Below are positions 14,548-18,650 of a stretch of DNA of 33,857 nt, piece by piece. The position numbers and the translations under genes are program-made. Below the pieces are notes generated by a model, which was not told the origin of the DNA, searched no databases, and saw nothing but the letters and a program-made list of their open reading frames with translations. The DNA is from Deltaproteobacteria bacterium (GTDB taxonomy: Bacteria; Desulfobacterota; DSM-4660; Desulfatiglandales; Desulfatiglandaceae). The DNA lies in assembly GCA_021737785.1 (NCBI GenBank), contig JAIPDI010000056.1, positions 1 to 33,857 on the forward strand, in the 5' to 3' direction. Every line of letters begins with the position of its first letter. Position 1 is the first letter of the stretch.

Positions 14548-14970
14548 ATGGCGGGAATAAACAAGGTGATTTTGGTTGGCAGGCTGGGAAAAGATCCCGA
14601 GGTGAAGTATACCCCCGACGGCGTGGCAGTGGCTGTTTTCCCGATCGCCACCTCCGTGGAGTGGAAAGACAAAAACACGGGGGAAAAAAGGGAGAAAACA
14701 GAATGGCATCGGATCGAGGCCTGGAGACGTCTGGGTGAAATATGCGGGGAATACCTGCACAAAGGGAAACAGGTGTATATAGAAGGGAGGCTGCAAACCG
14801 ATTCGTGGGAGGACAGGGATGGGAATAAGCGATACTCGACAAAGGTGGTCGCCCGTGAAATGCAGATGCTGGATTCCCCGGGGGGAAAAGCTGAAAGAGA
14901 AGACTACCAAGGTCAGCAGCCTCCTCTCGAAGAACCGGTAAACGTACCGGAGGACGATATCCCCTTTTAG
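14548..14970 (+). CDS. ssb: Single-stranded DNA-binding protein
   Basis: A 140-residue SSB that coats single-stranded DNA in replication, recombination and repair. The OB-fold spans about 4-108 and starts with [21 protein letters not shown], with typical [22 protein letters not shown] and the late [17 protein letters not shown] strands. A short, polar, glutamine/proline-containing linker (about 112-133) leads to the acidic tip EDDIPF, the peptide that docks SSB-interacting enzymes. AAAGGAGG lies about 8 nt before the ATG. It is a single gene, divergent from rnj. Its tip is shared with the unrelated protein at 18303-18650. Confidence 0.97.
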
Positions 14971-18302: not shown

Positions 18303-18650
18303 ATGGACAAAGAGACCTTTTACGAATATCAGACCAACAATGCCTATGGCGACGGCATCCTGCTGGACGAATACAGGAATGAGTTTTCCCTGGTGTCAGC
18401 CAAGCGCAAGGACGGAAAGACCTACATGGAATGGGTGTTTCCACAGAAGAAGGACGGCAGCAAGCAACCGATAGACAAGAGCCTGCCGTGGAAAATCAAA
18501 CTCGGTCCCAAGGATGAAGCCATCAAGGTGCTGCGGTTTTTCCTGGCACAACTGGAGGGGGCGCCCGCTTATACGACCGATGTCCAGGATGATGTCCCCA
18601 TCGGAGAACCGCCTCCTGAACCCCCCTATGAAGACGATATCCCGTTTTAG
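18303..18650 (+). CDS. Hypothetical protein with SSB-like acidic C-terminal tip
   Basis: An unrecognised 115-residue protein. The N-terminal about 85 residues look like several beta strands (GILLDEYRNEFSLVSAK, TYMEWVFPQ, WKIKLGP) and then a helix (KDEAIKVLRFFLAQL). A proline/acidic linker follows and the chain ends in YEDDIPF. The last five residues equal those of the window's own SSB (EDDIPF), and a near copy (QDDVP) lies 19 residues earlier. In SSB this tip recruits repair and replication enzymes; a like role here is inference. The strand-strand-strand-helix order loosely recalls PC4/Whirly-type single-strand binders, which is speculation. Expression signals are strong: AAGGAGG before the ATG and a good promoter. 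An HD-domain gene follows on the same strand after 96 nt. Confidence 0.8.
   Translation: MDKETFYEYQTNNAYGDGILLDEYRNEFSLVSAKRKDGKTYMEWVFPQKKDGSKQPIDKSLPWKIKLGPKDEAIKVLRFFLAQLEGAPAYTTDVQDDVPIGEPPPEPPYEDDIPF

Follow-up and report, generated by a model that had tools for sequence, protein, structure and literature searches.

The window, which is a stretch of 33,857 nucleotides of contig JAIPDI010000056.1 from a bacterium of the Desulfatiglandaceae (GenBank assembly GCA_021737785.1), encodes a protein of 115 residues (MDKETFYEYQ...PPYEDDIPF) whose gene is preceded by a strong ribosome-binding site, is divergent from sucC and has an HD-domain gene next downstream (Table 1). The limits and length of the gene and the C-terminus EDDIPF agree with those of the initial annotation, which had also noticed that the single-stranded DNA-binding protein (SSB) encoded 3.3 kb away has an identical ending; this neighbor is a genuine member of PF00436/TIGR00621 and ends in PEDDIPF. 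Bacterial DNA repair and replication restart are organised by the SSB tip, nearly all studies of which have used OB-fold SSB proteins. The window protein has no family match in Pfam, NCBIfam or PHROG, no relative of it is found in the plasmid records searched, and PDB sequence matches to hydroquinone dioxygenase (0.018) and ribosomal S20 (0.032) were dropped as isolated and weak. According to alignments and two models, its core is built by β strands followed by a helix at residues 70-85, and Trp44, Lys59, Pro62, and Gly68 (W44, K59, P62, G68) are invariant.

Table 1. Position of the gene, of the parts of its protein and of the SSB gene in the window
Feature	Coordinates	Strand	Evidence
Gene of the 115-residue tip-bearing protein	18303..18650	+	translation, ribosome-binding site, 18-member family
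Ribosome-binding site AAGGAGGAA	18291..18299	+	sequence
Conserved core, residues 1-88	18303..18566	+	alignments and two models
Proline-acidic linker, residues 89-109	18567..18629	+	alignment, low pLDDT
Near-copy DDVP in the linker	18588-18599	+	alignment
SSB-type C-terminal tip EDDIPF, residues 110-115	18630..18647	+	sequence; kept in all members
Ordinary SSB with the same tip	14548..14970	+	PF00436 2.4e-39, TIGR00621 2e-48

Eighteen intact or near-intact members of 85-121 residues were compared, which come from Desulfobacterota genomes, IMG/VR contigs (L025-L027 and L038-L040) and two viruses of methanogens, vir555 and MetMV, scans of GTDB contigs having given loci L014-L024; the alignment is small and the size of the family is bounded by the collections searched. 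The spread among bacterial genomes is patchy: whole-genome search places the gene in 10 of 99 relatives, a count that includes this genome and one marginal match (E 0.0095), and in 3 genomes of a phylum-wide sample of 395. The Methanomicrobiales virus record vir555 is matched at E 2e-6. The Methanosarcina virus MetMV is matched over residues 13-80 by L027 as query, and despite the weak E-value (0.03) it serves as a blind confirmation, since its protein end, ESQDVPF, falls outside the matched part and its gene is positioned behind a Prim-Pol/helicase gene. Truncated copies are found in L022 (3303-3506), where the C-terminal half and the tip are kept behind an unrelated gene, and in L024 (3741-3839), and both genomes also hold an intact copy, which suggests gene gain and loss. 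The family tree is poorly supported, and virus-to-chromosome transfer is not readable from its branching.

The acidic Pro-Phe tip is carried by all 18 members with small variations only. Phenylalanine is the C-terminal residue in 17 of them and the penultimate one in vir555, which has one extra serine, while the proline before it is likewise kept in 17, L038 (7983-8303) being the sole member in which it is replaced (DDDIAF). The tips read YEDDIPF (window), EDDAPPF, DDDIPF, DDDPPF, EDDIPF, EDDVPF, NGDSVPF, DDDQIPF, NEDIPF, EDEIPF, GGDIPF, DDDIAF, DEPPPF, DEEIPF, DDVPFS, and QDVPF. In the alignment the linker before the tip has no conservation across members, and the near-copy DDVP, which had been pointed out in the window linker and is present there, is replaced by DNVP, ENVP or DDSW or is absent in relatives. 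A terminal D-D-[IVL]-P-F kept in diverse homologs had been named as support for the proposed role, and the tip is indeed retained in members with as little as about 35% identity, viruses of archaea included. Five members (MetMV, vir555, L021, L023, and L026) were detected through matches that end before the tip. When 1903 stop-to-stop ORFs of 16 sequences were scanned blind, a tip pattern was matched by 14 of the 16 family members versus 3 of the 1887 other ORFs, and these three are two true SSBs and the gene just upstream of the L023 member. This upstream neighbor (L023 1954-2640), which lies in a viral-type replication region and ends in EDVNEIPF, has no match in PHROG or Pfam. The literature searched, partial in its coverage, describes no DDIPF tip on a phage protein that does not belong to the SSB family.

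Viral members of the family belong to replication modules. Stop/start overlap with a helicase or primase gene is seen in four loci. For L025 the overlap is between the start codon of the member and the stop of a DnaB helicase gene (PF03796, 7.8e-84); an ERF annealing protein is encoded upstream and a RuvC-like resolvase downstream. The L021 member overlaps a primase-helicase gene (PHROG 239, 1e-120), itself behind a replication-initiation gene, and the members of vir555 and L039 each overlap a Prim-Pol/helicase gene. The order in L027 is a replication-initiation gene, a CHC2 primase zinc finger, a DnaB-like ATPase and the member, and in MetMV two small genes lie between the Prim-Pol/helicase gene and the member. 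Helicase or primase adjacency was scored in these six loci, and the genes of L026 and L040 lie near a contig end. The L023 member overlaps a gene that comes after a replication-initiation gene, and in L038, which has no adjoining helicase gene, the downstream gene matches PHROG exonuclease families. Chromosomal copies are solitary and lack a helicase gene, and their surroundings are variable, with neighbors named by eye from the sequence as sucCD in the window and L014, a DnaK-like gene in L016, and carB and a glutamine-amidotransferase-type gene in L015.

The four overlaps would fit a helicase or primase accessory, a loader or stimulator that does not coat ssDNA and whose tip binds the viral helicase-primase or the host PriA. 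One kind of Prim-Pol/helicase is also common to MetMV, vir555, and L039, and at least 80% of the L039 protein is matched, among 50,697 phage records, by just MetMV and vir555, the same two phage records that yielded family members; this match counts in favour of a stand-in for SSB as well. Such an accessory is unlikely, as the neighboring helicases are of several types (DnaB, T7-like primase-helicase, Prim-Pol/ATPase) while the tip stays constant, and the chromosomal copies have no helicase gene beside them. The genes after similar helicases in Pseudomonas phage BR144a and podovirus ctjLE16 are unannotated.

A search for the SSB family PF00436 covered four carrier virus records, namely vir555 and those of L025, L026, and L027, and gave no match in any of them, IMG/VR records being possibly incomplete. 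None of the 59 genes of vir555 is annotated as an SSB. The L023 contig also encodes an OB-fold SSB-like protein without the tip. Of the SSB ends read in eight genomes, six are EDDIPF, one is EDEIPF and the last is this tipless protein, and the host SSBs of seven carrier genomes end in one of the two former sequences. The distance of 3.3 kb between the two genes, although true in the window, is a spacing confined to the genus, and a general linkage of the gene to SSB was rejected because the two lie on separate contigs in G003, G006, G037, G042, and G053.

The folded part had been described as lacking a recognisable OB pattern, and no OB fold is recognised here either: neither PF00436 nor any other SSB model of Pfam and NCBIfam matches the window core, the Pfam SSB domain matches none of the 16 family members searched, and no OB-fold SSB chain is among the structural matches listed, although such an absence proves nothing by itself. 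The full-length model (AlphaFold2, 13 alignment rows, pLDDT 73) has strands at residues 5-8, 17-24, 27-36, 39-42, and 64-68 before the helix, a linker of low pLDDT, and the order b-b-b-b-a, as in PC4/Sub1/YdbC proteins (PF02229). Foldseek gives no significant match with this model. After re-ranking by VIA-align, whose Z values are low here and under 8 may reflect merely a common arrangement, chains of the PC4/Sub1/YdbC type rank first (Z 3.9-5.4): the best is the PC4 homolog BPSL1147 (Z 5.4, 61 residues, 2.9 Å), the top six also include human PC4 (4.7), PUR-alpha (4.1), MoSub1 (4.1), and EF_3132 (3.9), and the T5 PC4 homolog is found at Z 3.5. The likeness is gone in the core-only model, which has the higher confidence (16 rows, pLDDT 87, pTM 0.72) and in which the fourth strand is not kept and the best Z is 3.0; its best match in a viral library is an unnamed 85-residue protein (30% identity, E 0.007). 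Profile comparison by hhalign gives a probability of 0.3% against PC4/YdbC and 0.1% against T5.115, which we take, by reading its sequence, to be the gene of the T5 PC4-like ssDNA-binding protein, and the window protein has no Pfam match to PF02229. The structure prediction and fold search that had been suggested earlier gave one model that is PC4/PUR-like, which the core-only model and the profile comparison do not confirm, and a PC4-like fold is a lead only, given by the full-length model. A by-eye alignment, which pairs W44 with W89 (REYW vs MEW) and Y24 with F77 (DFKG vs EYNG), W89 and F77 being the two PC4 residues that stack on bases (PMC4350104), was rejected because both pairs together need an insertion and hhalign does not support them.

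The core has a nearly neutral charge, a property that does not argue for strong ssDNA binding but is compatible with it. This charge would suit a competitor or hijacker that does not bind ssDNA and whose tip occupies or redirects RecO, PriA, RecQ, RecJ, and others for viral replication, as would the presence of the same tip on host SSBs and the strictness of the tip compared with the variable remainder of the C-terminus. A competitor is nevertheless unlikely: the well-conserved core with its four invariant residues points to more than a peptide carrier, the gene is locked to helicase/primase genes, and viruses of methanogens keep the tip though their hosts are described as RPA-type (PMC3984812).

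The tip pattern [DE][DE]-hydrophobic-P-F-stop was also searched in the whole 5.33-Mb genome. It has five matches in DNA, four of which end an open frame, namely SSB, the window gene, an ORF of 140 residues (contig C1) and one of 85 residues (C77). The reversed-pattern control gives six matches at the DNA level against these five, so the tip alone is no proof, and its weight comes from its conservation in relatives. A chance ending without function, which these counts would allow, can be dismissed, being contradicted by the conservation in 18 of 18 members past an unconserved linker and by the several members that were found without using the tip.

A viral ssDNA binder that reuses the SSB tip is the most economical reading, since the tip is strict, the linker is free and the context is that of replication modules. 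On balance, comparison of the sequences favours a family of small replication proteins, not described before, that most likely bind ssDNA and would act as a viral stand-in for SSB with a docking tip; tailed viruses that infect bacteria or methanogenic archaea carry it in their replication modules. The window protein is probably an unrecognised stand-in of this kind. The idea of an unrecognised ssDNA binder, already present in the initial annotation, gains from the helicase/primase neighbors and from the four virus records with no OB-fold SSB match, whereas a PC4/PUR-type fold was not confirmed by the second model or by profile comparison.

In such a stand-in, the compact core of β sheet and helix would cover the single strands that the neighboring helicase or primase exposes, and the SSB-type tip, formed by acidic residues and then hydrophobic-Pro-Phe, would hang on a flexible linker of free length. 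In bacteria the tip would dock SSB-interacting proteins, which include RecO, PriA, RecQ, RecJ, Pol III chi, and others, and in archaeal viruses it perhaps docks the virus's own helicase-primase. The family would thus bind ssDNA and partner proteins, and the chromosomal copy that stands alone beside sucCD in the window may be of viral origin and may have a present role in the host. Tip peptides of E. coli SSB bind RecO, PriA, chi, and PriC without help of the linker (PMC7145534), and the combination of a free linker and a strict tip in the family agrees with such linker-independent docking. An SSB variant whose tips are each extended by six residues does not bind RecO when complexed with ssDNA (PMC7145534), and the extra serine of the vir555 tip hints at a different partner there.

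Among known systems, the family shares with bacterial SSB (PF00436/TIGR00621) the arrangement of a folded core, a disordered linker and an acidic tip that ends in hydrophobic-Pro-Phe, and differs from it in a core without SSB-model match or recognised OB fold, in its small size and in a shorter linker. In phage T7, the ssDNA-binding protein gp2.5 has an acidic tail with an important terminal phenylalanine that contacts viral replication proteins, features that the family shares or would share; its OB fold sets gp2.5 apart, as does a tail of another type than D-D-I-P-F. The PC4-like protein of phage T5 (PDB 4BG7), which is a precedent for a PC4-like viral SSB (PMC8545432), is, as the family may be, a small non-OB proposed viral SSB in a replication region. 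Unlike the family, T5.115 ends in KAKNA and is tipless, and hhalign shows no sequence relation between them.

Three RPA proteins are described in Methanosarcina acetivorans (PMC3984812). It is possible, and we put it forward tentatively, that a non-OB viral ssDNA-binding family acquired the docking tip of SSB and employs it even where the virus infects an RPA-type methanogen. If so, the tip of methanogen viruses must dock a viral or an unrecognised archaeal partner, and the SSB-tip code would be more portable than the SSB fold; archaeal viruses make it testable what the tip binds where SSB is not the host ssDNA-binding protein. A stand-in for SSB would also mean that the docking code is transferable to another scaffold, would explain the replication of some viruses without OB-fold SSB and would provide compact tools for studying SSB partners.

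The two further tip-ended ORFs of the genome are both uncharacterised. The one of contig C1 (L042 1096-1518, stop at about 182023) is rich in acidic residues and ends in NPDDIPF, and the one of C77 (L046 1501-1758, minus strand) ends in DDDDLEKEDIPF. The SSB genes of L014 (3950-4753, genome G001) and of contig C326 of G003 encode two tandem PF00436 domains in a single protein of 267-285 residues, while the relative in the window has one domain.
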